From Diaphorobacter sp. HDW4A (lineage in GTDB: Bacteria > Pseudomonadota > Gammaproteobacteria > Burkholderiales > Burkholderiaceae_C): a stretch of 64,000 nucleotides of DNA. The stretch's first letter is position 1. Every line of letters begins with the position of its first letter. The stretch is from assembly GCF_011305995.1 (NCBI RefSeq), contig NZ_CP049910.1, positions 1,922,001-1,986,000 on the forward strand, written 5' to 3'. The notes under the pieces were generated by a model. The model was not told the origin of the DNA, searched no databases, and saw nothing but the letters and a program-made list of their open reading frames with translations. Below, one piece after another: positions 30,201 through 45,765 of the stretch. A program made the translations under genes and the position numbers.

Positions 30201-31325
30201 TCAGAACCTGTGTGTGACGCCGAGGCCCATGCCCGACGGATCCTGCCCCGGTTTCATGCCGGTGATCGAGTTGGCCGAGAGGTTGTAGTTCGATGTCGCG
30301 CCGTTGGTGATCCTGGTGTATGCCGCCCAGAGATCGGTGCGTTTGGAGAGATGATAGGCGTACCCGAGCGATATTTGCTGCGCCTTCGCATCGGTTCCCG
30401 GAATGCCGATGCCGCCGAGTGATTTGGTCGTGTTGCCCTTGGGTGATTGCGCGTGCACGTAGGAGGCCATGACTTCGTGCTGCGGCGTGAACTGGTGGCT
30501 CAAGGCGATTTGCCAGGCGTTGCGAGTGAGGGATTGGCCGCGCTCGGGCTCGTAGCTCAGGCGCTCGAAGCTGCCGCGCACGCGGGCCGCGCCGAAGGAG
30601 TAGGCTGCGGCGATGCGGTGCGCGTCGTCGTTGCTGCCGCCGTAGAAGTAGGAGCGATGCTGTTCGTATCCCCATGCGGCGTAGAGCGGGCCGTTTTTGT
30701 AGGTGGCGAGCGCGCCGAGCATGCCGGGGTTTTTGTCGTCCGAGCGCTCTTCGCGCATAGCGTAGGCGAGGCGGAATTCAAAACCGTTCCAGTTGGGCGA
30801 CCAGTACTGCAGCAGGTTTGGCTGGCGGCGGTCGAACGAGGTGGGCGACACGCCATTCGCGCCGGTTGCGAAGCCGTTGCCCATGATGGAGTTGGACGCG
30901 AAGATGCCCGCGGTGAACGGGTCGATGGCGTAGACCGAGACGAAGCGTAGCGGCGCCTCCCATTGGCCCATCACTAGCTGGCCGGTGGTGGTTGACAGGC
31001 CGATGGCGGTGTTGCGGCCGCCCCAAGGACCGTCGCCGTTGTCCACGCGCACATTGGTCTCGAACTGGGCCCATACCGAGGTGCCGCCGCCGAGGTCTTC
31101 CTTGGTGCGAAAGCCCAGTACCGACAAGTTGTTGGACAGGCGATTTGTCGACAGCGACGGCGCGACGCCACCGCTTGCGCGCACGTGTTCGACATCAGTC
31201 TTCAGAAATCCATAGATGGTCACCGTGCTGTCAGTGGCCGTCTGTGCGATGGCGCTGGTGGAGCAGAGAGCGGCTGCTGCGGCAGCATGAAACCAGCGGT
31301 GTTGTAGCGTGTGTTTGGTTCTCAT
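30201..31325 (-). CDS. Outer-membrane porin (Gram-negative trimeric porin, Comamonas/Neisseria type)
   Basis: The 374-aa protein has a signal peptide (cleaved near STSAIAQTATDS) and the beginning SSVTIYGFLKTDVEH-like VTIYGFLKTDVEHVR of Porin_4 proteins. Blocks such as FRTKEDLGGGTSVWAQFE, FDRRQPNLLQYWSPNWNGFE, YKNGPLYAAWGYE and the final GLGVTHRF, ending in Phe, are diagnostic of 16-strand beta-barrel porins. A run of 9-bp repeats and a TTGGTATACCAA-like site lie between its start and the upstream gene cluster (separate entries). It is the last gene of region C and is transcribed on the minus strand. Confidence 0.95.
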   Translation of the reverse strand: MRTKHTLQHRWFHAAAAAALCSTSAIAQTATDSTVTIYGFLKTDVEHVRASGGVAPSLSTNRLSNNLSVLGFRTKEDLGGGTSVWAQFETNVRVDNGDGPWGGRNTAIGLSTTTGQLVMGQWEAPLRFVSVYAIDPFTAGIFASNSIMGNGFATGANGVSPTSFDRRQPNLLQYWSPNWNGFEFRLAYAMREERSDDKNPGMLGALATYKNGPLYAAWGYEQHRSYFYGGSNDDAHRIAAAYSFGAARVRGSFERLSYEPERGQSLTRNAWQIALSHQFTPQHEVMASYVHAQSPKGNTTKSLGGIGIPGTDAKAQQISLGYAYHLSKRTDLWAAYTRITNGATSNYNLSANSITGMKPGQDPSGMGLGVTHRF

Positions 31326-31334
31326 TGTATAAAT

Positions 31335-31376
31335 AAAAAATACAAAAAATACAAAAAATACAAAAAATACAAAAAA
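31335..31376 (-). repeat. Tandem 9-bp A/T-rich repeats directly upstream of porin start
   Basis: Four full copies plus a partial copy of the unit AAAAAATAC run from 31335 to 31376 on the plus strand, ending 10 bp upstream of the porin ATG at 31325. The element is in the 5' leader or promoter spacer of the porin. Repeats of this kind expand and contract by slipped-strand mispairing and can change promoter spacing or leader length. Confidence 0.9.
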
Positions 31377-31381
31377 TATTA

Positions 31382-31393
31382 CTGGTATACCAA
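31382..31393. promoter_or_regulatory. Candidate GntR operator, porin promoter region
   Basis: The sequence CTGGTATACCAA matches the palindrome TTGGTATACCAA with one difference at the first base. It lies about 57 bp upstream of the porin ATG, directly beyond the 9-bp repeat tract, and 290 bp after the end of the LVIVD gene. It is one of five copies spread over 31-43 kb. Confidence 0.7.
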
Positions 31394-31514
31394 TTGCGGT
31401 TTGAATTTGACATCAGATATCACTAGCGCAGTTCTGGGGTTTCACCTCATTTACGCGAAGACTTTCGGAAATTTCGAGAACTTTGCAGCATGAACTTCTC
31501 GGTTTGGGTTGACG
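31394..31514. other. Spacer between porin operator and terminator
   Basis: AT-rich, no coding frame recognised. It lies between the porin control region and the hairpin that ends the upstream transcript. Confidence 0.3.
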
Positions 31515-31548
31515 AAAAAAAGCCGCACGATCAAATGAACGTGCGGCT
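31515..31548 (-). terminator. Rho-independent terminator of the LVIVD/porin-2 transcript
   Basis: A perfect 9-bp stem (AGCCGCACG / CGTGCGGCT, 31521-31529 and 31540-31548) with a 10-base loop is followed in the minus-strand reading direction by a T run (the complementary A tract is 31515-31520). It lies about 120 bp downstream of the end of the gene at 31670 and would terminate minus-strand transcripts before the porin promoter. Confidence 0.85.
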
Positions 31549-31669
31549 CAAAGCCTTGGAGGCCCTCTGCGCAAATCGGATCGACTCGTGCGGAGGGTCC
31601 CCGAGGTCGCAACCGCCGCAGGTCGGGGACGGCAGTTGCGAATAACGTCAACGACTCAAATCGGCCCCC

Positions 31670-33472
31670 TCAACGTGCCGGCCAAGGCTTCTTGGGCATG
31701 CCGATCAGTGGCTCACCCAGCAGTGGCGAAGACAGCGCGTAGGCTCCGTGTTCGGTGAACGCCCACATGATGTTGCGGTCGTACTCTGTGTACATCGCAA
31801 GCACGCCCTTGCCGAGGGTGTAGCCGGGCAGTTGTGTCTGATCGGCGAGCGGTGGCACGAAGTAGCCAGCGATCTTGGGTTCGGCCGGATTGCTCACGTC
31901 GAACATCTGTACGCCCGCGTTATAAAACGAGTAGGGCACGATGTTCTGACGCCAGCCGTCGAGTTGGCCAATGGCGTTGGAGCGCTTGGGGCCGAAGTTG
32001 CCGCCGCGCTGGCAGAAGTCAGTGTAGGGCGCGCCTTCCGGTGGTTTGGGACGCGGCAGCGTAGTCTCCACCTTCATCTTCGATGGGTTCTTGGCGTTCA
32101 CTACGAAGATGTCCTTGTAGGGCTCGTAGCAGTCGCGGTTCATCGGGTAGCCGCTGGTGAACACGTAGCCGGTGCGCTCGTACTGGCTCACGTCCGCGTT
32201 GTCGTATTCCGTGCCCGCGAATGAGGGCGGAGTGTTCACGTTGTCCAGGATCTTGGGATTGGACGGATCGGTCATGTCGAACGACCACAGGCCCAGACCG
32301 CCCATCGCGCCGAAGCCGATCTTGCCGCCGTCCTCAAGCGGCTTGGGCAGGAACATCGGAATGCGTGCTCCCATCCACGAGGCTCGGTTGCCCGCGCGCG
32401 GGTTCTTCAGGTATTCGAAGATGCTGGCTTTGTCGTCGACGACCTGACCCGGCACGGTGACCTGCGAGAGGAACTTGGGATCGGCCGGATCGGACATGTC
32501 CCAGACCTGGTAGCCGGGCGAGTACAGATAGTTGGGGTACTCCGACAGTGCGTAACTGTCGTTGGGCGCGGCGGCCAGAATCATGTACTTGCCGCCGTAG
32601 TATTCGGGCGAATCGAGCGAGCCGGAACCCTGCTGTTGACCGATCGGCGCGTCGGGGTGCTGGTAGTCTGTGGTGCGTGTGGCGATCAGCTTCCAGTCGC
32701 TGGGCAGCGGGCCGTTCATCTCGTAGACTTTGAAGCCCTTGAGCGAGCTGTAGCTGCGTTGTGCAGCCACCTTGTCGGGCTCTTGCATCTTTTCGTTCAT
32801 CAGGCCGTAGCGACCGATTTCATACGAGGCCACCATCACCGGTTTGTTCAGCTTCTTACTCCAGGCGATGGTTGCGCCTCCGAGGTAGTCGGTGACGGTG
32901 GCTGCATTCCAGCGCTCGCTCGGGCCCTTGGGTCCCCAGACCGCACCCTTGGAGAACACGACCTTGGCGTTGGCCGGATCGGTTACATCCATGATGCGCA
33001 GGTAGTCGCGATCATGCAGATACAGATAGCGCTTGCCGTCGAAGTCGATGATGTTGTTCCACACATGGAAGGGCGACGCGACGTTCTCATAGAACGCGAG
33101 CACCTTGACGTTCTTGCTGAACGTGGTCTTGTCCCAGTGGTCGAGCATGCCGGGGAACTTCTGGCCCTTGTGCACTTCAGGCGTAGCCTTGGGCCAGACG
33201 AACTCGCCGGTTTTCGGGTTCATGCCGTAGTCCACGCCGGGCTTGAGTTCCTTGGGCGTGCGGTCGGGCGTGGCAGCCAGCCACTTGGCGAGCCAAGGGT
33301 CCTTGATGTCGGGCGTGCCGGGCACATGGTTGGGGTCGGTGGCTGGGGGCTGCGTGGGAGCGGCCGCGACGGCCTTATCTTGCGCGAAGGCACTTGCGCC
33401 CAGTGCCGCGAAAAGCGTGACGGCGGCGGCCGACCGGCTCAGATTTCTGGGAATGCGAAGTGAAAAATTCAT
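31670..33472 (-). CDS. Exported LVIVD-repeat beta-propeller protein
   Basis: This 600-aa protein has a signal peptide (cleavage near ASAFAQDKAV). It shows at least four copies of a repeat ending in a D-x-S/T-D/N-P-x-x-P/A-K motif: MDVTDPANAKVV, WDMSDPADPKFL, FDMTDPSNPKIL, FDVSNPAEPKIA. This is the LVIVD/propeller signature of secreted proteins. A Pro-rich linker follows the signal. No catalytic motif was recognised, so a binding or structural role in the periplasm or outer surface is likely. It is 60 bp downstream of porin 2 and probably co-transcribed with it, ending at the terminator at 31515-31548. A link between the propeller and uptake of the regulon substrate is inferred only from position. 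Confidence 0.85.
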   Translation of the reverse strand: MNFSLRIPRNLSRSAAAVTLFAALGASAFAQDKAVAAAPTQPPATDPNHVPGTPDIKDPWLAKWLAATPDRTPKELKPGVDYGMNPKTGEFVWPKATPEVHKGQKFPGMLDHWDKTTFSKNVKVLAFYENVASPFHVWNNIIDFDGKRYLYLHDRDYLRIMDVTDPANAKVVFSKGAVWGPKGPSERWNAATVTDYLGGATIAWSKKLNKPVMVASYEIGRYGLMNEKMQEPDKVAAQRSYSSLKGFKVYEMNGPLPSDWKLIATRTTDYQHPDAPIGQQQGSGSLDSPEYYGGKYMILAAAPNDSYALSEYPNYLYSPGYQVWDMSDPADPKFLSQVTVPGQVVDDKASIFEYLKNPRAGNRASWMGARIPMFLPKPLEDGGKIGFGAMGGLGLWSFDMTDPSNPKILDNVNTPPSFAGTEYDNADVSQYERTGYVFTSGYPMNRDCYEPYKDIFVVNAKNPSKMKVETTLPRPKPPEGAPYTDFCQRGGNFGPKRSNAIGQLDGWRQNIVPYSFYNAGVQMFDVSNPAEPKIAGYFVPPLADQTQLPGYTLGKGVLAMYTEYDRNIMWAFTEHGAYALSSPLLGEPLIGMPKKPWPAR

Positions 33473-33532
33473 TGTGTTAGTCTCTCGGAAAACTAGTGAG
33501 TCGCGTTTGAATCGCTTGTGAATCAGCGTCGC

Positions 33533-34579
33533 TCAGAACGCATGGCGGATACCGACTGCAACGCCCGTCGGGCTCTGGCCAGCGGAAGGGCTCGCTGTCC
33601 AGGTCACGGGATAGGCGATGGCCACGTCCTTCTTGTTCTTCACGTGCGAAGCAAGAAAATAGACATCGGTGCGTTTGGACAGACCGTGTGTCACGCCCAG
33701 CGTCAAGCCGTCGGCGGTGCCGATGTCGGCGTTCTTGTTGTCCTTGCGGTGCACGTAGCTCGCGTGAACGCGGGTGCGGTCAGTGACGTTCCAGCGCATG
33801 CCGAACTGCGCATCCCAGCCCTTGGAGGTGAAGCCGACATAGGGCGGATAGGCGTAGTAGCCGTCGTAGGTGTGGTAGACGAAGGTGGGCTCGACGCTGC
33901 CGAAGCGGTAGGTGGCGGACAGGTAGTTGTCGCGCGCGCTGCGCATTTCTGTTTTGTTGAACACATCGCGTTGGTAGGCCTTTTCAGCGGCAAAGCCGAC
34001 GAACAGCGGGCCGCTGCGGTACTCGGCAGCGGCGCTCATGAAGCGTCCGGCCTTGGAGCTGTCTTCCTTGCCGAAGGAATACATGAGGCGGCCGGTCAGT
34101 CCACCAAAGCTTGGCGTCCTATATTGCAGGGCATTGTCCACGCGGTAAGACGCGTAGAAGAACTGCATCGCGTTGACCATGCTGTAGGCGGATGCCCAGT
34201 TCGGGTCTGCATAGCCGGCCACCCAGAACGATGGTGTGAACTGGCGGCCCATCGTCACGTCACCCCAGTCGCCACGCAGGCCCAGGAAGGACTGGCGGAA
34301 CTGCGCGCTCATCTCGCCTGTATCCGCACCGAACATCGGCTCGATGGTGAAGTAGGCGCGGTTGCTGCCGCCCAGATCTTCGATGCCGCTGATGTTGAAG
34401 CGCGAGTTGTTCAAACCACCGCTGCTGATGCGCTTGACTGATCCGCTCTTGCCCGAGTCCTTCAGGTATTCGAGGTTCAGATCGACGAAGCCCGAGAGCG
34501 TCACCTTCGATTGAGCGCACACTGCGCCACCCGCGAGCAGCATCGCCGCCGTCGCCACCAGTTTCATCTTTGTCTTCAT
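33533..34579 (-). CDS. Outer-membrane porin (Gram-negative trimeric porin), second copy
   Basis: The protein is about 348 aa from the ATG at 34579 (MKTKMKLVATAAMLLAGGAV, a signal peptide ending near CAQSKVT). The frame is open to 34642, but that start is upstream of the signal. VTLSGFVDLNLEYLKDSG, LGGSNRAYFTIEPMFGA, FRQSFLGLRGDWGDVTMGRQ (the LRGDWG block), and the C-terminal VAVGIRHAF mark a Porin_4 barrel. It is distinct in sequence from the porin at 30201. The LVIVD gene follows it by 60 bp. An operator candidate lies at 34809-34820, about 230 bp upstream. Confidence 0.95.
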   Translation of the reverse strand: MKTKMKLVATAAMLLAGGAVCAQSKVTLSGFVDLNLEYLKDSGKSGSVKRISSGGLNNSRFNISGIEDLGGSNRAYFTIEPMFGADTGEMSAQFRQSFLGLRGDWGDVTMGRQFTPSFWVAGYADPNWASAYSMVNAMQFFYASYRVDNALQYRTPSFGGLTGRLMYSFGKEDSSKAGRFMSAAAEYRSGPLFVGFAAEKAYQRDVFNKTEMRSARDNYLSATYRFGSVEPTFVYHTYDGYYAYPPYVGFTSKGWDAQFGMRWNVTDRTRVHASYVHRKDNKNADIGTADGLTLGVTHGLSKRTDVYFLASHVKNKKDVAIAYPVTWTASPSAGQSPTGVAVGIRHAF

Positions 34580-34808
34580 ATCACTAAGTCTCCAGTTGAA
34601 TGATTCTTCTGCCTGCGGATGCGCACACGGTGCGTGCATCACCCGTCGTGTTCCGTTGCCTCGTCATGTCGTCACTCTGTCTAACTTGTTCGTCGATGCA
34701 TGTCCTGTGCTTCCTGCTCACCTTCGCGAAAGGGCTGAGCCCGGCTTCCTCACAGTTGCGCGAACAGGAGAATCTATTGATTCAAAGAAAAGAATACATA
34801 GACATGTG

Positions 34809-34820
34809 TAGGTATACCAA
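34809..34820. promoter_or_regulatory. Candidate GntR operator upstream of porin 2
   Basis: TAGGTATACCAA differs from the TTGGTATACCAA consensus at one base. It lies in the AT-rich stretch between porin 2 (minus strand) and the decayed surface-protein gene (plus strand), so it could serve either side. Confidence 0.65.
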
Positions 34821-34833
34821 TTAAATATAATTA

Positions 34834-36090
34834 GTGCAATCAAATATCGTTAGAGATGCGAATTTCTACGTGAAAACGAGCATGAAAAGGGATGGGAAAG
34901 ACATGAATGGAGTTGCTTCTGTTGACGTTGCGTCGATTTCTCTCCGTCATGAAAATGGATTCGAATACATCATGAAAACAGCACTATCCATCTGTTTTTT
35001 GCGATCAGGATGGGGGGCGTTCCGGAAGATGAACGGATTTCAAGCCTCAGAAGATATGGTGGGGCAGGTTGGCCAGACCAGCAGCGGTAGCGCCAATGTC
35101 ACGGCGGATTTTCCGAATTCGACCAATGGATCCATGCGCCTTGATTTGTCGAACACCAGCTCCAAGGCCGGGGTTGCTTTTTACCCGACTGCAACTTTCG
35201 GCAAATTGTCGGAGCTGAGCAAGGTGTCGTACCAAAGGCTGGTGCACACCACGGATGTGGTCGACCGGGCGCCGGTGCTGCGTCTGTATCTTCGGACTGC
35301 GGCGGGAGTGCATACACAGACGCTGGTCTACACGCCGGATATTGCGGGTGTGAAAGGCGTCAAGGGCGTAGGACTGGATACGTGAACCACCACGGATGCA
35401 ATGAGTGGCATTGTCTGTCAGGGCCGGAGCGCGCGATTCACGGAGGGATCGAGCCGAACATTGCGCACCCATTTTCCTATTTCAAGGCGAATCCCGATTT
35501 CGCTGATTTGGTGGTTTTTGCGGTCGGGGGCGGTGCGGGCAACGGCTCGAGCGGCTTGGTGAGGACCCTTGCCGCCGTTTCGGCCAACTTTGGCGTCGCC
35601 ATCGGCCACCATCAGCTGCGACAAGGCGGTGCTGGTGGACTCGGACGCACAGACATCCAATTGTGCGGTCACGCTGTCCAGATCCACGCAAATTGCGGCC
35701 ACCATTCAGTTGGCAACGACGGGTGACTCTACCCGCCACAGCGGCTGCGTCGGCGCATTGACCATTGCAGTGGGGGCAGCACTGCTGCATGTGTGGTAAC
35801 CGCGACGGCCAATACGGTGCAAGGCGATGGGAGTGTCACCGTGAGTGTCGCCGTCGCGCCGCCCAGTCACGTGGATGACTACGTTGTACCTTCGGCAGGT
35901 GCGGCGGTGTCGATCCAGATTGACAACGACGACGGTAACCGCCCACTGGTTGTCACGCCAGCAACGCCTGTTCTGTTCCTTGGGCAATGGGCGCTGATGC
36001 TTCTTGCAGCCATGCTTGCGGGCATTGGGTTGATGGGCCAGAGACGAGCCCGCAAACGTCGATCACCGTCAGCGAGCATCCATGCCGCAC
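34834..36090 (+). pseudogene. Frameshifted exported IPTL-CTERM-type surface protein
   Basis: The frame at 34834-35385 encodes an exported-type sequence (GSANVTADFPNSTNGSMRLD, FYPTATFGKLSELSKVSYQR, LYLRTAAGVHTQTLVYTPD). The signal lies after a hydrophobic MKTALSICFL near codon 50. It then stops, and sequence continues in other frames: ISCDKAVLVDSDAQTSNCAV up to about 35760 (frame of 35569), then GGSTAACVVTATANTVQGDG from 35770 onward, a second shift. The last part (35920-36080) has PVLFLGQWALMLLAAMLAGI followed by GLMGQRRARKRR, a transmembrane helix and basic cluster like the IPTL-CTERM sorting signal. Reading frames are broken at two or more places, so it is called a pseudogene. The order of the pieces is continuous. 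Confidence 0.7.
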
Positions 36091-36104
36091 CCGATGGACC
36101 AGGG

Positions 36105-36518
36105 TTACGCAATGCAGGCGACTGCCTTGATCTCCACCACCATGTCCGGATGCGGCAGGCCGCGCACGACGACAGTGGTGCGGGCCGGTGGTTGGTGTTC
36201 TCCGAAGAATTCCGCCCACGTCGCGTTGAATGCGGTGAAGTCTTTCTGATCGACGAGGTAGCAGGTCAGGTCGATGCAGTCCGCAAGGCTCGCTCCGGCC
36301 TCGCTCAGGATGGCTTCGATGTTGCGGAGCACGCGTCTTGTCTGTGTGGGAACGTCGAATTCGACGCGGCCGTCGGCGTGGCGTTGCACGCCGACGATAC
36401 TGCCATCGGGCATGCGCGCGCTCACGCCGGCGACATAGATGGTGTTGCCGCTCTGCCGCCAGCGGGCATAGTTGCCTAGCGGTTTCGGCAGGACTGAGGG
36501 AGCCTCTTTGTTCGTCAT
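36105..36518 (-). CDS. RidA/YjgF/UK114-family deaminase, AmnD (2-aminomuconate deaminase)-like
   Basis: The 137-aa protein matches the RidA fold. Its pattern (GNYARWRQSGNTIYVAGVSA, VQTRRVLRNIEAIL-like QTRRVLRNIEAILSEAG, DFTAFNATWAEFFGE, ARTTVVVRGLPHPDMVVEIK) is nearer to 2-aminomuconate deaminases of aminophenol/nitrobenzene pathways than to short RidA, judged from memory of those sequences. The RTTV block holds the conserved Arg that binds the substrate carboxylate. The stop of the upstream aldolase overlaps its ATG by 4 bp. In a ring-cleavage pathway it would hydrolyse an enamine/2-amino-muconate-type intermediate; the exact substrate is inference. Confidence 0.85.
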   Translation of the reverse strand: MTNKEAPSVLPKPLGNYARWRQSGNTIYVAGVSARMPDGSIVGVQRHADGRVEFDVPTQTRRVLRNIEAILSEAGASLADCIDLTCYLVDQKDFTAFNATWAEFFGEHQPPARTTVVVRGLPHPDMVVEIKAVACIA

Positions 36519-37459
36519 CGCTGCACGCCCTCAGTGCCCCCCATTTGCTCCATGCCCATATCGAAGCCGATGTCGCGCAGTTGCGCCATCATGCCGTCGG
36601 CCCAGGATGCGTCGGCGGGTGTCAGCGGTGGGCGCACGTGCTTCCACTCCTTGTCGCCAAAGGCCTTGGAGACGGCGTGCTTGAGCGCGGGAATCATGGG
36701 CTGAGTCTGGAAGATGCTGCGCACGGCCTTGAGCTGGGCTTGCTGTGCCTCGAACTCTGGCGTGCCCCAGGCCTTGAGTGCGCGGGCGATCAGTTGGGGC
36801 TGGACGTTGGCGGTGGCCGAGATGCAGCCCGCTGCGCCGAGTGGCAGAGCCTTTTCAAGCAGTGCCTCGGAGGCGGGGTAAACCTCGAAGCCGGGGAATT
36901 CGCGCAGCATGCGTTCGGTGTTTTCCCAGTTGCCCGAGCTGTCCTTGATGCCGACGACGGTCTTGGGATAAGACTTGATCAGGCGCACGATCAGATCGCA
37001 GCTGATGGGCACGCCGGTGAACTGGGGGATGTGATAGAGGTAGAGCCTGAACCTGTCGGATCCCACGGCTTCGATGAGATTGGCGTAGTAGGCGAACAGG
37101 CCGTTGTCCGATGCGGGCTTGAAGTAGAAGGGCGGCAGGGTGAGTGTGCCCGCGCAGCCCAACGCCACGGCGGCGCGGGTGAGGGAGATGGCCTCGGGCA
37201 GGGCGCAGAGGCCGGTGCCGGGAATCATGCGGTTGGCGGGGATGCCTGCGTCTACCAACTGTTCTAGCAGCGTGATCTTTTCTTCAAGCCCGAGCGAGTT
37301 GGCTTCGCTGTTGGTGCCGAAGACGGCCAGACCTGCGCCCTGCGAGATCAGCCAGCGGCAGAAGTCGATGAAGGCTTGGCTGTTGACGGTAAGGTCGGCG
37401 TTGAAGGGGGTGAGCGCGGGGGCAAAAACCTGCGTGCTGCGTGCTGTGTTTTCTGTCAT
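36515..37459 (-). CDS. Dihydrodipicolinate synthase/N-acetylneuraminate lyase-family aldolase
   Basis: The 314-aa TIM-barrel class I aldolase has the Schiff-base lysine motif VVGIKDSSGNWENTE, the Tyr block LYLYHIPQFTGVPI (Y-H-x-P), and the N-terminal FAPALTPFNADLTVN with the Gly/Thr motif FGTNSEANSL. The usual GTTGE is FGTNSEA, as in catabolic family members. The family forms or cleaves C-C bonds next to pyruvate. It is 4 bp coupled to the RidA-like deaminase and about 30 bp downstream of the esterase, in an operon with a perfect GntR operator. A retro-aldol step releasing pyruvate is inferred. Confidence 0.93.
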   Translation of the reverse strand: MTENTARSTQVFAPALTPFNADLTVNSQAFIDFCRWLISQGAGLAVFGTNSEANSLGLEEKITLLEQLVDAGIPANRMIPGTGLCALPEAISLTRAAVALGCAGTLTLPPFYFKPASDNGLFAYYANLIEAVGSDRFRLYLYHIPQFTGVPISCDLIVRLIKSYPKTVVGIKDSSGNWENTERMLREFPGFEVYPASEALLEKALPLGAAGCISATANVQPQLIARALKAWGTPEFEAQQAQLKAVRSIFQTQPMIPALKHAVSKAFGDKEWKHVRPPLTPADASWADGMMAQLRDIGFDMGMEQMGGTEGVQR

Positions 37460-37492
37460 GTTGTCTGTCTCCGTTGTGGAACTATTGAGTAC

Positions 37493-38443
37493 TTAGAGCG
37501 TGGGCTTGTGTGCATCTCGCATGAAGGCGATGAGCTCGGGACCCAGCGTATCCTCGCCGCTGTTGAAGTGGGCGACGATGGAGGTGTGGTTGTGCCGTGG
37601 CAACGCCACAAAGCGGGTGAGGGCGGTACGCGGGGGCTGCTTGGCTGCTTCGAAAAACTCTTGGCCGTAGCGGTCCAGATGCGTGTTCTCGTGCTCGGCC
37701 ACGGCGACCAGCAGCGGCACGTTGCAACTCTGAACATGGGAAGAGGGCGAGCGCACGGCGTAGAGCGACTCGTCTTCTCCGAAATAGGCGCGCACGCCGT
37801 TGGCGTTGGGGTTGTCGGGCAGCACATCGGCGGTGAGACGCGCGCTGATCAGCATGGCACCTGCGATGTCGCGCTCCGTGAGCCGGTCGTTCACTGTGGG
37901 GTCAAACAGCGCGCTTGCCACGTGTGATCCGCCCGCAGAGTGGCCCATGAGAAAGATGCGCGAAGGGTTGCCGCCGAAGGCCGCGATGTGCTGTTGCACC
38001 CAGCGCACGGCGGCAATCACGTCATCCGCGCCACCGGGATAGGGCGCATCGTGGGCAAGGCGATATTCCACATTCACCGCGACGCAGCTCTGGTGCGCGA
38101 ACCAGTAGGTGACGTTGTCGTAGATGGCTCCGTTGGCGCTCTTGTTGCCACGAATGAAGGCACCGCCATGAAAGAACATCAGCACGTCGCGCGGCTGTTC
38201 CGCTGCGTTGCGCCATGCTGCGCGACTGTAAACATCGAGCCGCTGGCGCTCGGCATCGCCGTAGTGGACGTCGCGCTCCCTGTCGATGCCTCCATTGTCC
38301 GCCTGCAGGACCAGCGGCGAATAGGTCTTCACCACGAGATCGCGGTACGCATTGATGTCGGTGGTCCAGATGGCTCCGGCAGCGTCGAGTTGCGCTTGCT
38401 GTTCCGCGCTCAACGTGCCAAAGGGTTGTGATGAATGATTCAT
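37493..38443 (-). CDS. Alpha/beta hydrolase, esterase/arylformamidase-like
   Basis: The 316-aa protein belongs to the hormone-sensitive-lipase/arylformamidase group. The oxyanion-hole HGGAFIRGNK, the nucleophile motif GHSAGGSHVA and a C-terminal His in LPRHNHTSI form the expected triad, with Asp/Glu in AVAEHENTHLD. The predicted -10 (TATAAT, 38451-38456) lies only seven bases from the ATG and no Shine-Dalgarno is present, so the mRNA may be leaderless. The perfect operator at 38469-38480 overlaps the -35. It starts the minus-strand arm of the divergent pair and is followed by the aldolase and RidA genes. Possible roles are ester, formamide or amide hydrolysis. Confidence 0.92.
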   Translation of the reverse strand: MNHSSQPFGTLSAEQQAQLDAAGAIWTTDINAYRDLVVKTYSPLVLQADNGGIDRERDVHYGDAERQRLDVYSRAAWRNAAEQPRDVLMFFHGGAFIRGNKSANGAIYDNVTYWFAHQSCVAVNVEYRLAHDAPYPGGADDVIAAVRWVQQHIAAFGGNPSRIFLMGHSAGGSHVASALFDPTVNDRLTERDIAGAMLISARLTADVLPDNPNANGVRAYFGEDESLYAVRSPSSHVQSCNVPLLVAVAEHENTHLDRYGQEFFEAAKQPPRTALTRFVALPRHNHTSIVAHFNSGEDTLGPELIAFMRDAHKPTL

Positions 38444-38450
38444 GGTAAAA

Positions 38451-38456
38451 ATTATA
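38451..38456 (-). promoter_or_regulatory. Predicted -10 box of the esterase operon
   Basis: TATAAT on the minus strand, 7 bases before the esterase ATG (38443). TTGGTA at 38475-38480 (minus strand) would be the -35 with an 18-bp spacer and overlaps the GntR palindrome. The transcript would start at or within a few bases of the start codon. Confidence 0.65.
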
Positions 38457-38468
38457 CATATTTATTTC

Positions 38469-38480
38469 TTGGTATACCAA
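38469..38480. promoter_or_regulatory. Perfect GntR operator between divergent esterase and VOC genes
   Basis: TTGGTATACCAA is a perfect 12-bp palindrome centred between the esterase (minus) and the VOC gene (plus). It covers the predicted -35 region of the esterase promoter; on the plus side a TATAAT at 38497-38502 could be the -10 of the VOC/dehydrogenase operon. Binding here would repress both directions. Confidence 0.8.
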
Positions 38481-38496
38481 AACATCATTTAATCGA

Positions 38497-38502
38497 TATA
38501 AT
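38497..38502 (+). promoter_or_regulatory. Predicted -10 box of the VOC/2-hydroxyacid dehydrogenase operon
   Basis: TATAAT lies 34 bases before the VOC start. The region 17 bp upstream overlaps the operator, so the -35 is weak and within the palindrome. Confidence 0.5.
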
Positions 38503-38536
38503 TTTCTCGCCAACACACTCAAAAGGAGACTCTGGT

Positions 38537-38965
38537 ATGGAAAAACTCAGACACATCGCCCTTTCCGTCAGCGACCCCGAAGCCGCTGCAACCTTCTTTG
38601 AACAGGCCTTCGGCATGACGCGCGCCGGTCGTGCGATGCGCGGCTGGTACATGACGGACGGCGTGATGAACGTCGCGCTGCTGAACTTCAAGGACGAGGC
38701 TGTGCCGGGCTACGAAAAGCTCAAGGACGTGCGCGGCGTGATCCACTTCGGCATGTGGGTGGACAACCTCGAAGAGGCCGAGAAGAAGGTGATCGCCGCT
38801 GGCGGCACTTACCTCACGGGCCGCAAGGAGACCGATCCCAATGTGTTCTACGAAGTGAAGTACCGCACGCCGGACGGCATCGTGTTCGACATCACCGAAT
38901 CGGGTTGGAAGGGCGCGGTCAAGGAGGTTGCTCCGGTGGAAGCCGCAGAGGTCAAATCCGCGTGA
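38537..38965 (+). CDS. Glyoxalase/VOC-family protein
   Basis: The protein is 142 aa from the ATG at 38537, 10 bases after AAAAGGAGA. It is a single betaalphabetabetabeta pair protein with LRHIALSVSDPEAAATFFEQ, VIHFGMWVDNLEEAEKKV and YRTPDGIVFDITESGW. The first two metal-ligand His positions are visible, whereas the usual Glu of DPDGNxxEL is Asp (PDGIVFDI), so its metal site may be altered. It is probably an isomerase/lyase of the VOC superfamily. It overlaps the 2-hydroxyacid dehydrogenase as GTGA. It is the first gene of the plus-strand arm of region C. Confidence 0.88.
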   Translation: MEKLRHIALSVSDPEAAATFFEQAFGMTRAGRAMRGWYMTDGVMNVALLNFKDEAVPGYEKLKDVRGVIHFGMWVDNLEEAEKKVIAAGGTYLTGRKETDPNVFYEVKYRTPDGIVFDITESGWKGAVKEVAPVEAAEVKSA

Positions 38966-39927
38966 GCGATCTGGCCGCATCAAGTGCCATGCTGCCTCGT
39001 CCGCATGTGCTGGCGCTGATTCAGTTGCCAGAGGTGACGCGTCAAGCGCTTTCGTCGGTGTACGAGCTGCACATGGCAGCGCGTGGACTCGATGAAGCGA
39101 GCGATGCTGTGCCGCTAGATCGCATTGTGGCCGTGGTCACCAATGGCACGACGGGGCTCGGCGCGGACCTGATGCGCCGCATGCCCGCGCTGCGCGTGGC
39201 GAGCGCGTTCGGCGTGGGATACGAGAACGTCGATCCGGCCTGCGCGGCGGAGATGGGCGTTGTCGTCACCAACGCGCCGGGCACGAACGACGAGACCGTG
39301 GCCGATCACGCGCTGGGCTTCATGCTGGCGCTCGGACGTGGCTATGGCGCGCTCACGCAGGCGGTGCGCGCGGGCGGCTGGGAGCAGTCGCGCGCCGCGC
39401 GGCCCACGCTTAGCAGTAGCGTGGTCGGCATCATCGGCATGGGCCGCATCGGCCAGGGCATTGCACGGCGCTGTGCGGCCTTCGGCATGCGGGTGATCTA
39501 CTGCACTCGCACTCCGCGCGCGGAGCTGGCGTATGACTACGAGGCCGATCTGCTCGCGATGGCTCAGCAGTGCGACTATCTGGTCGCCGCCTGCCCTGGC
39601 GGTGCCGTCACCCGGCACATCATCCACGCCGGGGTGCTGCGCGCGCTCGGGCCGCAGGGCTTTGTGGTGAACGTGGCGCGCGGCTCGGTGGTGAATACCG
39701 ACGATCTGGTGCAGGCGTTGCAGCAGGGGCTGATCGCCGGTGCCGGGCTCGACGTGCTGGAAGGCGAGCCAGAGGTGCCCGATGCCCTCAAGGCCATGGA
39801 CAACGTGCTGATCACGCCTCACATGGCCGGCCGCTCGCCCGCAGCCCAGCAGGCGCAGACCGATGTGCTGCTGACCAGCTTTGCCGATGTGCTCGCGGGT
39901 CGTCGGCCAGAGCATGCAGTGGAATGA
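38962..39927 (+). CDS. D-isomer-specific 2-hydroxyacid dehydrogenase (NAD-dependent)
   Basis: The protein is 321 aa from the GTG at 38962, coupled to the VOC stop (GTGA). The Rossmann motif GIIGMGRIGQGIARR, the conserved Arg in NVARGSVVNTDDLVQAL, Glu in LDVLEGEPEVPDAL and the catalytic His in ITPHMAGR are complete. It reduces a 2-oxo acid or oxidises a D-2-hydroxy acid such as glycerate or hydroxypyruvate. A longer in-frame extension upstream is overlap only. A bidirectional terminator follows 28 bp after the stop. Confidence 0.93.
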   Translation: MSDLAASSAMLPRPHVLALIQLPEVTRQALSSVYELHMAARGLDEASDAVPLDRIVAVVTNGTTGLGADLMRRMPALRVASAFGVGYENVDPACAAEMGVVVTNAPGTNDETVADHALGFMLALGRGYGALTQAVRAGGWEQSRAARPTLSSSVVGIIGMGRIGQGIARRCAAFGMRVIYCTRTPRAELAYDYEADLLAMAQQCDYLVAACPGGAVTRHIIHAGVLRALGPQGFVVNVARGSVVNTDDLVQALQQGLIAGAGLDVLEGEPEVPDALKAMDNVLITPHMAGRSPAAQQAQTDVLLTSFADVLAGRRPEHAVE

Positions 39928-39948
39928 ATCGCTGATTCATGCAGCGCC

Positions 39949-39987
39949 AAAAAAAACTCAGGGACCATTTCGGTCCCTGAGTTTTTT
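39949..39987. terminator. Bidirectional rho-independent terminator
   Basis: A strong hairpin (AACTCAGGGACC / GGTCCCTGAGTT with a short loop, about 39957-39983) is flanked by an A run on the left and a T run on the right. It sits between the converging 2-hydroxyacid dehydrogenase (plus) and VOC-2 (minus) genes and would stop transcripts in both directions. Confidence 0.92.
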
Positions 39988-40004
39988 ATCGTCGCATTAA
40001 CGGT

Positions 40005-40568
40005 TTACTTCTTCTCTTGCGTTTTTGACGCGACCAGATGAGCCGGTGGCGGCACCACGAAGCGTTCGAGTCGGTACTGGTCGAAGCTCTCCAGATTACG
40101 CTCCCATACTTCGGCGTGGTGCTTGCCGTCCTGGGGGATCTGGGTCATCTCGCAATAGACCTCGACGTTGTTGCCGTCCGGGTCCTTGAACACGAGGAAC
40201 AGGTTGTTGCCCGGGCCGTGGCGGCCGATGCCGCGCACGATCTCGACGCCGTGTTCCTGCAGCACTTTGACCGAGCGCTCCATTTCGTCCTCGCTGTCGA
40301 TCAGGTAGGAGAAATGCTCGAGTCCCGGGCGCGAGTAACGCGGCAGGTCGTCGTAATCGGGCGAGTCCTTGTCGGGCAACTGGGCCAGCGCCAGGTCGTG
40401 GTGGTCGGTGCCTGCGCGCAGAAACACCATGTTTTCGCCGATCCAGTCCGACACTTCAAGGCCCAGCACCTCGGTGTAGAACTTTGCGGACTTCTGGATG
40501 TCGCGCACCATGAGCACCATGTGCCCGAGGCGGCGCGGACGGAGTCTGTTGGCTGTCGTTGTCGTCAT
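40005..40568 (-). CDS. VOC-superfamily protein with extradiol-dioxygenase-type metal triad
   Basis: The 187-aa protein has ligand His in GHMVLMVRDIQK, a second His in LEHFSYLIDSEDEME and Glu in DPDGNNVEVYCEMTQIPQ. This is the 2-His-1-Glu set of Fe(II) or Mn(II) type I extradiol dioxygenases and related glyoxalases. GPGNNLFLVFKDPDGNN and FLRAGTDHHDLALAQ recall the BphC-type ring-cleavage dioxygenases. The length corresponds to a one-domain form. It has AAAGGAGACACGAG as ribosome site and is 36 bp upstream of... downstream of the FAH-family gene's partner order (minus strand: Bug, FAH, VOC). It may be the ring-cleavage enzyme of the pathway (inference). Confidence 0.88.
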   Translation of the reverse strand: MTTTTANRLRPRRLGHMVLMVRDIQKSAKFYTEVLGLEVSDWIGENMVFLRAGTDHHDLALAQLPDKDSPDYDDLPRYSRPGLEHFSYLIDSEDEMERSVKVLQEHGVEIVRGIGRHGPGNNLFLVFKDPDGNNVEVYCEMTQIPQDGKHHAEVWERNLESFDQYRLERFVVPPPAHLVASKTQEKK

Positions 40569-40603
40569 CTCGTGTCTCCTTTGCCGTGCGTTGAGGAAGC
40601 GGG

Positions 40604-41554
40604 TCAGGCCTTTGCCGCGACGATGTGGTTTTCGATGGAGCCGATGCCGTCGACCGAGGCCACCATCACGTCACCAGGCTTGAGGAAGATGCCCTTGCCC
40701 ATGCCCACCCCGGTGGGAGTGCCGGTGGCGATCATGTCGCCGGGGCGCAGCGTGAGGATGCTCGAGAGATATTCGATCTGCTCGGCGATATTGAAGATCA
40801 TGCCTTCGGTCAGCGCGTCCTGCATGCTCTCGCCGTTCACCGTGAGGCGCATGCGCAGCTTCATCGGATCGCCGAGGCAGTCGCGTGGCACAAACCATGG
40901 GCCGATGGGTGCGAAGGTGTCAAAGCTCTTGCCACGGAACCAGTCGTGCGAAAACGGGTAGTCAGAGCGACGCGTGAGATCGCGCGCGCTCACGTCGTTG
41001 ATGACGGTGTAGCCCGCGATGTACTCGTAGGCATTGGCCGCGCTGATGTGGCGCCCACCCTTGCCGATGATGACGGCGAGCTCCACTTCCCAGTCGAGCT
41101 TCATGGTGTTCGACGGCATCACCACGGCGGTCCTCGTGGCAGTGATGCTGCTGTCGGCCTTGATGAAGATATAAGGCGTGCTTTCGCTGCGCGCGGCCAG
41201 TTTGGTGCCCATTTCTGCCGCGTGTTCGTAGTAATTGGACGCCGTCGCGAAGATACGCGTGGGGGCATAGGGCACGCCGAGCGCGCCGGTCTGCGCGGGC
41301 AGTTCGATCTTGCGGCTGCGGATTGCGTCGCCTGCGGCTTCCAGCGACTTGATCGCGTCCGAAGAACCTTCCCATTGGGCAAGCAGAGTGCCCAGATCGG
41401 CGGGCAGTGCTGCCGCCTTGTTCGCGTCGATGGCGGCGACGGCTGCGTGCGCGTCGTAGACCTTGTCGTCTACCACCAGCCCCAGGCGCTCGCCTGGGTT
41501 GTCGGTTGTACCGTTCACATTGGCCGCGTAGGCGGCGATTCCAAACCATTGCAT
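40604..41554 (-). CDS. Fumarylacetoacetate hydrolase-family protein
   Basis: The protein is about 316 aa from the ATG at 41554 (MQWFGIAAYAANVNG), which has AAGGAA as ribosome site; the longer open frame to 41605 lacks this. The FAH-fold metal motif is seen in LDWEVELAVIIGKGGRHI (E..E), followed by VINDVSARDLTRR, RGKSFDTFAPIGPWF and DMIATGTPTGVGMGKGIF with the Lys/Gly loop. The family includes 2-oxopent-4-enoate hydratase, 4-oxalocrotonate decarboxylase and acylpyruvate hydrolase, which act after aromatic ring cleavage. It lies between the Bug receptor (upstream) and the VOC-2 gene (downstream) on the minus strand. A hydrolase or hydratase/decarboxylase role is not separable from sequence. Confidence 0.93.
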   Translation of the reverse strand: MQWFGIAAYAANVNGTTDNPGERLGLVVDDKVYDAHAAVAAIDANKAAALPADLGTLLAQWEGSSDAIKSLEAAGDAIRSRKIELPAQTGALGVPYAPTRIFATASNYYEHAAEMGTKLAARSESTPYIFIKADSSITATRTAVVMPSNTMKLDWEVELAVIIGKGGRHISAANAYEYIAGYTVINDVSARDLTRRSDYPFSHDWFRGKSFDTFAPIGPWFVPRDCLGDPMKLRMRLTVNGESMQDALTEGMIFNIAEQIEYLSSILTLRPGDMIATGTPTGVGMGKGIFLKPGDVMVASVDGIGSIENHIVAAKA

Positions 41555-41638
41555 GTCTCGTTCCTTGCTTCTCTGACTGCGCCCGTCGGGCGCATTACCT
41601 TCCATTGCCTGCGGCGTTCGCGCGTGACTTTTCTTTGT

Positions 41639-42601
41639 TCAATCAGCGCGAATGCCGGAGTTCTTCAAAACCTTGCTCCACATGTCGACCTCGCGCTGGA
41701 TCTGCGTGCCGAAGGCCGCGCGGGTCACGAACATCGGCACCACGCCCATGTCTTCCAGCTTCTTGAGGATGGCGGGGTCGTCCTTCATCTTTGCGACCTC
41801 ACTGGCGATGCGATCGAGCACTTCGGCAGGCGTTCCTGCGCGTGCGACCAGACCGTTCCAGGTGCTGACCTCGTAGCCCGGATAGGTCTCTGCGATGGTC
41901 GGCACATTCGGCAATTCCTTCAGACGTGCAGGGCTGGAGATCGCAAGCAAGCGGATCTTTCCAGCGCTCAACTGTGGAATCACTTCCGAGGGGCTGGCCG
42001 AATACATGTCGATCTGGCCGCCAATCAGATCAGTGATCACCGCAGCGCCGCCCTTGTACGGCACGTGCGTCATGTCGATGCCTGCGCGCTTACCGAACAT
42101 GAAGGCCGACAGTTGCGTGAGTGCACCTGCACCGCCGCTGCCATAGGTGATCTTGCCCGGCTCCTTCTTCGCGAGCTCGACGAATTCGCCGAGATTCTTC
42201 GCGGGCAGCGAGGCGCGCGTGGTGATCACGAAGGCGTTCGCACCGATGTTGACCACCGGTGCGAATTCCTTGAGTGGATCGAAGTTGAAGCTTGCGTTGA
42301 CGAAGGGCGCAGTCACCACCTGCGTGGCGGTCGCCATGAACAACGTGTGGCCATCGGCGGGCTGACCCAGCACCTGACGCGCGGCGATCAGGCCCGATGC
42401 GCCGGGCTTGTTGTCGACCACTACCGAGGTTCCGAGCACTTTGGTCAGATGCGTGGCGGTGAGGCGCGCCATCACGTCGGTGTTTCCACCCGCGCCGAAC
42501 GGTACGACGATGGTGATGGGCTTGCTGGGCCAGTTGCCCTGCGCCACGGCGGCGCTGGCCGCAGTGAACGCGAAGGCGGTGGCAACGAGTGCTCGGAGCA
42601 T
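41639..42601 (-). CDS. Bug-family periplasmic substrate-binding protein (TctC type)
   Basis: The protein is about 320 aa from the ATG at 42601 (MLRALVATAFAFTAASAAVA, signal peptide). The ribosome site AAAGGAAG lies 5 bases upstream. The core has WPSKPITIVVPFGAGGNTD, TSVVVDNKPGASGLIAARQV, ITYGSGGAGALTQLSAFMFG, TWNGLVARAGTPAEVLDR and VDMWSKVLKNSGIR, all typical of PF03401. The perfect operator TTGGTATACCAA lies 21 bp upstream (42622-42633). It is followed by the FAH-family and VOC-2 genes. There is no TctAB permease here; the ligand is probably the inducing acid of region C. Confidence 0.95.
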   Translation of the reverse strand: MLRALVATAFAFTAASAAVAQGNWPSKPITIVVPFGAGGNTDVMARLTATHLTKVLGTSVVVDNKPGASGLIAARQVLGQPADGHTLFMATATQVVTAPFVNASFNFDPLKEFAPVVNIGANAFVITTRASLPAKNLGEFVELAKKEPGKITYGSGGAGALTQLSAFMFGKRAGIDMTHVPYKGGAAVITDLIGGQIDMYSASPSEVIPQLSAGKIRLLAISSPARLKELPNVPTIAETYPGYEVSTWNGLVARAGTPAEVLDRIASEVAKMKDDPAILKKLEDMGVVPMFVTRAAFGTQIQREVDMWSKVLKNSGIRAD

Positions 42602-42621
42602 TGTCTTCCTTTGTTTATTTA

Positions 42622-42633
42622 TTGGTATACCAA
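42622..42633. promoter_or_regulatory. Perfect GntR operator upstream of the Bug receptor
   Basis: TTGGTATACCAA (perfect palindrome) lies 20 bp before the Bug ATG, between the Bug gene and the end of the RutE-like gene. It would sit at or just after the transcription start, as a roadblock or repressor site. Confidence 0.8.
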
Positions 42634-42693
42634 GAATACATATAAAAATACAAAAACTCAAGAGTGGTTGCCATGAATCAATGTTTTTCGCAC

Positions 42694-43278
42694 TCAGAGT
42701 ACTTGACAGGCCTCCTCGAAATCCAAGCGCGGCAGCTTTCCGAACAGCTTGCCTGGATCGCCATGGCCGAGGTTGCAGAGAAAGTCGATGCGCAACTGTC
42801 CGTCGGGGAAGAAGGTGGAATTCACCAGTGCCTCGTCGAACCCCGACATCGGTCCGCAGTCCAGACCCACGGCGCGCGCCGCCATCAGAAAATAGCCGGC
42901 CTGTAGCGTGGCATTGCGCCGCGCGGTGGAGTCCGCGTGCGCTGCGTCGTTGGCGAAAGTACTATAGAACTGTGGGTTGTGCGGGAAGAGGCGCTCAGCC
43001 TGCTCGTGAAAGCGCGTGTCGCGTGCGAGCAGGGCGGTCACCGGGGCAGACTGGACCTTGGCGACGTTGCCCGGACTGAGTGCAGGCAGCAGCCGCTCGC
43101 GTGCCTCGGGCGTCGTGATGAACAGCACGCGCAGCGGGCAGCAGTTCGCGCTTGTCGGGCCCATCTTCATGAGGTCGTAGAGTTGACGCAGTTGGTCCTG
43201 CGACACGAGTGTGTTCAGAAATCCGTTCTGCGAACGGGCGTGGAGAAAGAGCGCTTCCACTGAGGAGTTGTCGGGCAT
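42694..43278 (-). CDS. RutE/HadB-like nitroreductase-family protein
   Basis: The protein is about 194 aa from the ATG at 43278 (MPDNSSVEALFLHARSQNG), a good match in length and pattern with the RutE/HadB (malonic semialdehyde reductase-like) family. Motifs are YDLMKMGPTSANCCPLRVLF, LSPGNVAKVQSAPVTALLA, MAARAVGLDCGPMSGFDEA, and a C-terminus LGHGDPGKLFGKLPRL. RutE acts with the RidA-family protein RutC in uracil degradation. Having both families in one regulon is suggestive but the other rut genes are absent. A one-mismatch operator lies at 43405-43416, between this gene and gntR. Confidence 0.9.
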   Translation of the reverse strand: MPDNSSVEALFLHARSQNGFLNTLVSQDQLRQLYDLMKMGPTSANCCPLRVLFITTPEARERLLPALSPGNVAKVQSAPVTALLARDTRFHEQAERLFPHNPQFYSTFANDAAHADSTARRNATLQAGYFLMAARAVGLDCGPMSGFDEALVNSTFFPDGQLRIDFLCNLGHGDPGKLFGKLPRLDFEEACQVL

Positions 43279-43404
43279 TGCTGCGGCACCTTGTTCGGTT
43301 GATGAGATGAGGAATCCACCATGCCAGTCGTACAAGGGAAGGCGCCAAGCCTCGTGCGGACGATCCGGCCATGGATCGCCCGAAATTCTACGTCAATAAT
43401 TTTT

Positions 43405-43416
43405 CTGGTATACCAA
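43405..43416. promoter_or_regulatory. Candidate GntR operator upstream of the RutE-like gene
   Basis: CTGGTATACCAA matches the palindrome except the first base. It lies about 127 bp upstream of the RutE-like ATG and 20 bp beyond the 3' end of gntR. Confidence 0.7.
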
Positions 43417-43436
43417 AATTAATATGGCACTATAAA

Positions 43437-44255: not shown

Positions 44256-44415
44256 TGAATGGTATTTCTTTGGCTTAGGATGCTCCGCATTCTAAGAGCC
44301 GTACATGGATGTTGATTTCCACATAGAAGTGATCTGGGGATGTGGATGAAGTCTTGGACTGCTTAGAGGTAGTTCATGTGTTCATACGAAGGTCGAATCC
44401 TGGTGGTGGAGCTGT

Positions 44416-44545
44416 ACGTCAAGCTAGGGCAGGTTCAACAGGTCGTCGCAGCACATGCATTGAACAGTTCAGCCGGGGTTTTGAATCCCGGAGTTTTTTG
44501 GGGGCCTTCGTTGAATTGTCTCGCAATGGAGTCCAGGCGCTCTTG
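44416..44545 (-). pseudogene. IS30-family transposase C-terminal remnant
   Basis: A minus-strand frame ends with SQERLDSIARQFNEGPQKTP then GFKTPAELFNACAATTC and a stop. The block of the form ERLDxIAxxLNxRPRKTLGF, TPAExFN is the conserved C-terminus of IS30 transposases. Only this tail is left; the DDE core is missing upstream, where the sequence goes out of frame. Confidence 0.7.
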
Positions 44546-44696
44546 CGAGTGACCGACAGATCCTGCATGCCTGTGGTGGGTACTGCCTGAGCGAGCCATT
44601 CTTGTTTCCATTCGAGCCGCGCGGCCATGGGTGGTGTGGATCACGGAAGTAGACTTGGATGTCAGTTGCCAATGTGAAGCGCTTGTTCCCTGCCAT

Positions 44697-44720
44697 CGAA
44701 AAGACCCGTGTAACGGGTCT
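44697..44720 (-). terminator. Possible terminator downstream of the alpha/beta hydrolase
   Basis: AGACCCG TGTAA CGGGTCT (44702-44720) forms a seven-bp perfect stem, with a short T run on the minus strand (AAAA at 44698-44701). It is 20 bp downstream of the hydrolase stop. Confidence 0.6.
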
Positions 44721-44740
44721 CCAAGATGGATGAGCTGTGT

Positions 44741-45433: not shown

Positions 45434-45765
45434 GAAAATGTCTCCTTGTGAACTGGAACACTGATTGCTCGGTGATGGGTTCGTCAATAGGGCGAAAGTA
45501 GTCTTCACCTTCTGCGCCTCCTTCCCGGGAAGAGAAAGGAGGTGTTTCATAATAAATGACTATCAATATTGCCTGGTAATTTATTTGGTATCGCCGCATC
45601 GCCTGTGTTTGGATTGCAAGCTTGCACACTCTTGGCGCTACGTCGTGCCCCCCAACCGGAGTCAACAGAAAGGCTCAACGCATATATTTTCACGAAACCT
45701 GGAATATATGCGCACCGGTTTCCGTCTATCCAAGTACCTATCCACCTGCCTTGAAAGACACACTC

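Follow-up and report, generated by a model that had tools for sequence, protein, structure and literature searches.

Which protein reads the five short palindromes that lie among putative catabolic genes in a 64,000-nucleotide stretch of Diaphorobacter sp. HDW4A DNA (the whole of which we call the window)? The palindrome, TTGGTATACCAA, is 12 bp long, with the half-site form TTG-GTATAC-CAA. An original prediction held that two perfect copies and three copies with one mismatch mark the regulon of a nearby GntR-family protein, and all five were verified by sequence match (Table 1). Judging from sequence comparisons, we consider it likely that the five are operators of the GntR protein encoded at 43437-44255, which would repress some 12 genes locally. 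This regulon reading is supported by the confinement of the sites to this locus, by their conservation, by their co-occurrence with the regulator, by co-variation of regulator and operator and by promoter geometry.

The palindromes are confined to this locus. With up to two mismatches, TTGGTATACCAA is matched at five places in the window, all of them the known ones; shuffled windows gave a mean of 0.57 such matches, and 0 of 100 shuffles reached five. Across the whole genome (6,761,832 bases in three contigs), a limit of one mismatch returns the same five places, compared with a single place for a reversed control pattern. The claim that the window holds no other copy thus stands, and at this stricter limit it extends to the genome. 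Placed at random, five sites would all fall within 12,035 bp with a probability of about 5e-11, and the whole-genome counts led us to reject a chance origin of the cluster. When the genome search is relaxed to two mismatches, TTGGTATACCAA has 61 places and the control pattern 79; this level is therefore background, and we rejected weaker genomic sites as further members of the regulon because their number falls below that of the control. All five sites are intergenic, as predicted, relative to the likely gene starts (ATG codons at 38443 for the esterase, 42601 for Bug, 43278 for the RutE-like gene, 31325 for porin 1 and 34579 for porin 2, and position 38537 for VOC1), and each lies upstream of one of them. 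Mechanically drawn open reading frames (ORFs) with earlier ATG or TTG starts overlap some sites; the inner starts were chosen from homology and sequence.

The sites are also conserved. We compared 12 genomes or loci, the window's included (clade I; G and L numbers below refer to genomes and loci), counting a site upstream of a covered gene if it had at most two mismatches. A site is present at the Bug promoter in 10/10 covered loci, at the esterase/VOC1 promoter in 11/11 and at the porin 2 promoter in 5/5 (one with two mismatches), as well as at the RutE-like promoter in 9/12 (again one with two mismatches) and at the porin 1 promoter in 5/7. As for the exceptions, the RutE-like gene is located elsewhere in L048 and L050, the L065 contig ends shortly past it, and in L049 and L064 porin 1 directly follows RidA without a site of its own. 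The named relatives are Diaphorobacter caeni, Acidovorax soli, Acidovorax sp. CF316, Variovorax sp. E3, Xylophilus sp. ASV27 and Diaphorobacter sp. HDW4B, whose stretch is the same as that of G005. Conservation beside orthologous genes had been set beforehand as the test on which the prediction could fail, and it survived.

The clade I tally comes to 44 sites from 12 genomes, conditioned on at most two mismatches; it excludes seven sites with no assigned target, three with 0-1 mismatch (L040:11207, L049:6822 and L050:15303) and four with two mismatches (L039:5515, L048:16884, L049:513 and L050:14069). Short identical palindromes can be repeats, and the flanks of the 44 sites show an A/T bias and are otherwise not conserved, which might speak for a repeat family, a mobile-element remnant or a nucleoid-protein site. 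Yet in the relatives the palindromes stay in place with respect to -10 elements and start codons even as the flanks diverge, they are missing from the rest of the genome at up to one mismatch, and their bases change in step with the regulator (see below). We regard such an origin as extremely improbable.

Where the regulator occurs, the sites tend to occur with it. A search of 80 relatives, own genome included, found an orthologue with 85-93% identity in four of the five other same-genus genomes. Sites with at most one mismatch adjoin this orthologue in 6/6 cases in G002, 6/7 in G004 and six of the eight listed in G005 (11 sites in all), and G003 has two perfect sites, both beside cluster genes. 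The remaining same-genus genome, G001, lacks an orthologue; it has three one-mismatch matches, all changed at a central base. Of 399 genomes sampled from the family, seven (own genome included) encode an orthologue at E<=1e-70; at least two perfect 12-mers are found in 6/7 of these versus 1/392 of those without it (Fisher P 9e-12, a descriptive value as the rows are related genomes). The seventh orthologue genome, G178, has sites with one or two mismatches at the same genes, and exactly one perfect 12-mer occurs in 26 other genomes of the sample.

The GntR protein had been called the only regulator in this zone, and it is the sole regulator among the 20 ORFs run through Pfam. Its predicted assignment to the FadR subfamily was right, with a GntR domain at 73.3 bits (cut-off 27) and an FCD domain at 92.0 bits (cut-off 24.3). 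Operators of this subfamily are defined by TKGT/ACMA boxes in the accessible text of PMC4494728, and TTGGTATACCAA contains TGGT-AT-ACCA, an A/T-rich palindrome with such boxes and 2-nt GT-AC spacing. The spacing is where the prediction of a usual FadR-type site fell short, as 3 nt separate GT and AC in the typical site (same source). The protein scored under all cut-offs of the NCBIfam models for UxuR, ExuR, PhnR, PdhR, LldR and NanR, the best being phnR_burk (119.9 vs a cut-off of 271.5 bits). FCD proteins with a metal-binding effector pocket combine an Asn or Asp with three His residues of the FCD domain. The GntR protein has this pattern in N127, H131, H175 and H197, putative metal ligands that are invariant across 30 aligned homologues.

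How would the sites act? A consensus scan of 29500-45000 returned one sigma-70-like promoter, TTGGTA-18-TATAAT at the esterase, fewer than the mean of 3.7 in shuffles. We then compared the -10 spacing of the relatives' sites with 2000 column-joint shuffles each. The esterase -10 lies a fixed 18 nt from TTGGTA in relatives (16/2000 shuffles reach the score), the VOC1 -10 lies at 22 nt (1/2000) and the RutE-like -10 at 20-21 nt (50/2000). At Bug, the operator comes immediately after TATTC, with TTGA farther upstream, in 5/10 loci. An ATG opening an esterase-like N-terminal frame is found 22-27 nt past the palindrome in 10/11 loci, and since in the window only 7 nt separate it from the -10, the esterase mRNA is probably leaderless.

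Operators lying over the core promoter favour repression. We infer binding and repression as follows: a GntR dimer would bind each TTG-GTATAC-CAA and block RNA polymerase, the operator coinciding with the -35 box at the esterase and perhaps at porin 2, lying just ahead of the -10 at VOC1 and the RutE-like gene, and covering the -10/+1 region at Bug. Release of the repressor from its operator would then follow when the FCD domain binds a small carboxylic acid, which is probably aromatic or arises by ring cleavage from the substrate taken up. The same protein might instead bind the sites as an activator or dual regulator, since some FCD regulators are dual and E. coli FadR is annotated as such, but we think this unlikely, as wherever a promoter can be recognised the operator overlaps its -35, spacer or -10/+1. 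Activator sites usually lie around -41 or farther upstream, and such positions were not seen among the recognisable promoters.

Co-variation of regulator and operator points to this GntR protein as the binder. A second group of clusters found by similarity (clade II) comprises five loci, L069, L070, L077, L079 and L082. Homologous clusters are found in Burkholderia arboris, Cupriavidus metallidurans CH34, G049 and G569, where the regulators share 42-44% identity with the window's, and in Ensifer sp. PDNC004, where the regulator shares 48% identity with the B. arboris one. We located the sites of these clusters from GTATAC/GTATGC cores rather than by an unbiased motif finder. In four clade II clusters, 8/12 intergenic GTATAC sites are flanked by T..A (TGTGTATACACA, TATGTATACATA and imperfect forms) and 0/12 by G..C, a count that leaves out intragenic GTATAC matches and those beyond the cluster (in L078 and L080, and at L079:13606 and L082:22005); the Ensifer cluster has three TGTATGCA sites (by eye). 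Clade II operators are thus mostly T-GTATAC-A or T-GTATGC-A, whereas those of clade I are G-GTATAC-C.

The regulators differ in parallel. Alignment with E. coli FadR places the window's Arg30 and Met61 at FadR residues 35 and 66, or helix-turn-helix (HTH) positions 28 and 59, under an inferred numbering (FadR residue minus 7) that we checked only by FadR having Gly where the paper says, and Arg, Thr and Thr elsewhere. Positions 28 and 59 are Arg and Met in 12/12 clade I regulators, and the K base of TKGT in their operators is G; those of clade II have I, P, K and K (alignment) and K (Ensifer, by eye) at position 28, and Arg at 59. According to the accessible text of PMC4494728 (section 10), positions 28 and 59 both correlate with this base pair, Arg28 prefers G/C, and regulators with Pro at position 40 tend not to have G/C there. 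The combination of Arg28 and Arg59 is found in 14 homologues (P0057-P0068, P0074 and P0082). This co-variation supports, but does not prove, the GntR protein as the probable binder.

Several observations weigh against this assignment. The co-variation is essentially one split between two clades and is therefore weak as independent statistics, 4/12 clade II GTATAC sites are of neither flank type, and position 40 is Pro in both clades, contrary to the trend given in the accessible text of PMC4494728. The promoter geometry holds less well at the porins: the porin 2 -10 at 18 nt is weak (565/2000 shuffles reach the score) and porin 1 failed the spacing test (1609/2000). In the window gntR has no operator upstream of it, leaving autoregulation unsupported there. 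Lastly, G236 has neither the orthologue nor the regulon genes but carries two perfect sites 4.9 kb apart (L063:8332 and 13215), which lie 182 bp and about 4 kb, respectively, from a GntR homologue with 24-28% identity and Ala at position 28. Hence the 12-mer does not belong to this regulator alone, nor is Arg28 a strict rule; given this exception, we rejected the 12-mer as a marker of this regulator alone.

Further observations concern the same genomes. The two G236 sites each adjoin a TGGTGCAC box, and the cluster there has other GntR homologues. Perfect sites at L049:6822 and L050:9909 lie about 0.5 kb and 0.1 kb ahead of the gntR start, and autoregulation might occur in these relatives.

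A different GntR-family regulator encoded elsewhere, for instance in the kynurenine gene block, might own the sites, the adjoining gntR being incidental. Two further homologues at E<=1e-30 are encoded in the genome in addition to the GntR2 of the kynurenine block, the 12-mer lies near a different GntR homologue in G236, and in HDW4B a one-mismatch site within the kynurenine-block promoter could mean overlap with another regulator, which also counts against our assignment. We nevertheless consider ownership by another regulator quite unlikely, as the sites co-occur with the window's orthologue across the family. The kynurenine block of the window genome (C1:1548766-1562428, about 0.39 Mb away) has no site of the TTGGTATACCAA motif at up to one mismatch, and its own GntR2 lacks Arg at position 28 (Thr, by eye). 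The divergent promoter between the kynurenine ABC transporter and GntR2 (located at L071:31095-31266 and in L084) has a different element, a conserved inverted TACCAAGAT..TGGTA type (by eye, five relatives), which is perhaps the operator of GntR2. On these grounds we rejected GntR2 as the binder, and retain the adjoining GntR protein as the likely local repressor.

Table 1. Candidate operators, genes and promoter elements of the GntR-associated cluster (window coordinates; domain calls from Pfam, run on 20 ORFs, and NCBIfam).
Feature	Position	Strand	Remarks
Operator 1 (candidate)	31382..31393	none	CTGGTATACCAA, 1 mismatch (CTGG..); upstream of porin 1
Operator 2 (candidate)	34809..34820	none	TAGGTATACCAA, 1 mismatch (TAGG..); upstream of porin 2 and 600-aa gene
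Operator 3 (candidate)	38469..38480	none	Perfect TTGGTATACCAA; between divergent esterase and VOC1 operons
Operator 4 (candidate)	42622..42633	none	Perfect TTGGTATACCAA; upstream of Bug gene, over likely -10/+1
Operator 5 (candidate)	43405..43416	none	CTGGTATACCAA, 1 mismatch (CTGG..); between gntR and RutE-like gene
-35-like hexamer TTGGTA, esterase promoter	38475..38480	-	Inside operator 3; only sigma-70-type match in 29500-45000
-10 element TATAAT, esterase promoter	38451..38456	-	7 nt before ATG
-10-like TATAAT, VOC1 promoter	38497..38502	+	16 nt past operator 3; column-joint shuffles 1/2000
GntR/FCD regulator, 272 aa	43437..44255	-	Pfam GntR 1.3e-20, FCD 5e-26
RutE-like malonic semialdehyde reductase / nitroreductase family	42694..43278	-	NCBIfam NF003768 273.7 bits, cut-off 152; start from sequence
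Bug/TctC-type periplasmic binding protein	41639..42601	-	Pfam TctC 8.3e-61
Fumarylacetoacetate-hydrolase (FAH) family enzyme	40604..41605	-	Pfam 4.8e-72; PDB relatives 1gtt, 8gsr; start codon uncertain
VOC2, single-domain glyoxalase/extradiol-dioxygenase-like	40005..40568	-	Pfam Glyoxalase 6.4e-26; HpaD 3e-20, below cut-off
D-2-hydroxyacid dehydrogenase family	38962..39927	+	Pfam 7.1e-50; GTG start by eye, 4-base overlap with VOC1
VOC1	38537..38965	+	86-99% identity in clade I relatives; L050 copy split (93% and 76% pieces)
Alpha/beta hydrolase (esterase)	37493..38443	-	Pfam Abhydrolase_3 7.9e-22; best PDB relative 4zrs
DHDPS/DapA-family aldolase or lyase	36515..37459	-	Pfam 5e-41; under dapA cut-off
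RidA family	36105..36518	-	TIGR00004 2.3e-21, under its cut-off
Porin 2	33533..34579	-	Pfam Porin_4 6.4e-49; start from sequence
600-amino-acid (600-aa) protein ("LVIVD" in the original prediction)	31670..33472	-	Likely co-transcribed with porin 2; occurs in related clusters
Porin 1	30201..31325	-	Pfam Porin_4 6.7e-46

The regulated set would comprise two Gram-negative outer-membrane porins, the 600-aa protein, the Bug solute receptor, the esterase, the DapA-like aldolase, RidA, two VOC proteins, the 2-hydroxyacid dehydrogenase, the FAH enzyme and the RutE-like reductase. Gene spacing points to five putative operon groups: porin 1; porin 2 with the 600-aa gene; the divergent pair esterase-lyase-RidA and VOC1-dehydrogenase; Bug-FAH-VOC2; and the RutE-like gene.

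This type of mechanism is already known, and the regulon is a further case of local control by an FCD-GntR protein. UxuR, PrpR and MdcY, FadR-subfamily regulators with 2-nt GT-AC spacing described in the accessible text of PMC4494728, resemble it in having a winged helix-turn-helix plus FCD architecture, a TKGT/ACMA palindrome and a catabolic regulon. However, the window's GntR protein lies far under the UxuR NCBIfam cut-off, and the target genes of all three differ. Atu1419 of Agrobacterium fabrum, from the VanR group of FCD regulators (a group told apart from the FadR group by the number of effector-domain helices), is likewise an FCD repressor with a catabolic regulon, and its palindrome ATGTATACAT similarly overlaps the -10 or sits between -35 and -10 (accessible text of PMC7797058). 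Some clade II operators (TATGTATACATA) have a core identical to Atu1419's, whereas the window clade has G-GTATAC-C compared with T-GTATAC-A, and the gene sets differ (hydroxycinnamate in Atu1419). NanR is also a GntR repressor reading GGTATA, but according to the accessible text of PMC8012715 it binds as three dimers on a (GGTATA)3 repeat, whereas the window has single palindromes. In the open-access literature searched, we found no description of this regulon and no paper pairing TTGGTATAC or GGTATACC with GntR; RegPrecise lay outside this search. A GntR protein without a known site in these sources now has a candidate DNA site and target set, and the two regulator clades with their matching operators make it easy to test whether positions 28 and 59 correlate with the base pair as published.

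What does the regulon serve? The mix of enzymes (VOC, FAH, lyase, RidA and reductase) suggests that an aromatic or heteroaromatic acid is processed after cleavage of its ring, and the whole is perhaps a catabolic regulon for an aromatic acid. We examined 17 clusters for kynurenine, 3-hydroxyanthranilate and 2-aminomuconate genes and found them inside or beside eight. The blocks are full or nearly full in G004, G002 and HDW4B, and partial in G003, A. soli, G183, CH34 and B. arboris; the other nine (the window, L048, L049, L050, L064, L077, L079, L082 and L083) have no kynurenine-type genes within the examined stretch. For CH34, 3-hydroxyanthranilate and kynU genes are listed in the accessible text of PMC8879955; that of PMC6449761 mentions GntR once (AphS) and does not contain 'kynurenin'. 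The regulon is thus often linked to kynurenine catabolism, but in the window genome it is separate from the kynurenine block.

About 12 genes are thereby marked as one putatively co-regulated unit, adjoining kynurenine/3-hydroxyanthranilate genes in 8/17 clusters. The ligand and the substrate are proposals, and the identity of the ligand would reveal the pathway. It is possible, though doubtful in full, that the cluster encodes an undescribed route for import and catabolism of a kynurenine/3-hydroxyanthranilate-type compound or a relative with a cleaved ring, that a basic RGRP tail of the regulator contacts the A/T-rich flanks, and that the G-to-T operator switch follows residues 28 and 59. 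Points of interest are the substrate, the ligand, the way the operators differ from clade to clade, and the basic tail. This C-terminal tail (43437-43640) is Lys/Ala/Pro-rich and basic, with an AT-hook-like RGRP. Clade I relatives have similar basic tails of varying sequence, RGRP being present in some only, and the clade II members inspected have short tails of different composition; any function for the tail is a guess, for which the literature on AT-hook or lysine-rich GntR proteins gave no lead.

The 600-aa protein had no match in Pfam, NCBIfam or PDB searches, and the literature on LVIVD gave no lead. It matches proteins in 54 plasmid records from several Alpha- and Betaproteobacteria, and a Shinella homologue adjoins porin and kynureninase genes. 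The interval from RidA to porin 2 (34834-36105) contains short ORFs in the window, of which one gave an IPTL-CTERM match, and at the equivalent place G004 and G002 carry a kynurenine/3-hydroxyanthranilate block. No known structured RNA was found by Rfam at E<=0.5 in 29500-46500, including the interval of about 230 nt (34579-34809) that separates operator 2 from the porin 2 ATG and implies a long leader. A perfect tandem repeat of AAAAAATAC (x4.9) occupies 31335-31378, in the gap that separates operator 1 from the porin 1 start codon. The repeat is missing from the relatives aligned at porin 1, so porin 1 expression could vary through repeat slippage.

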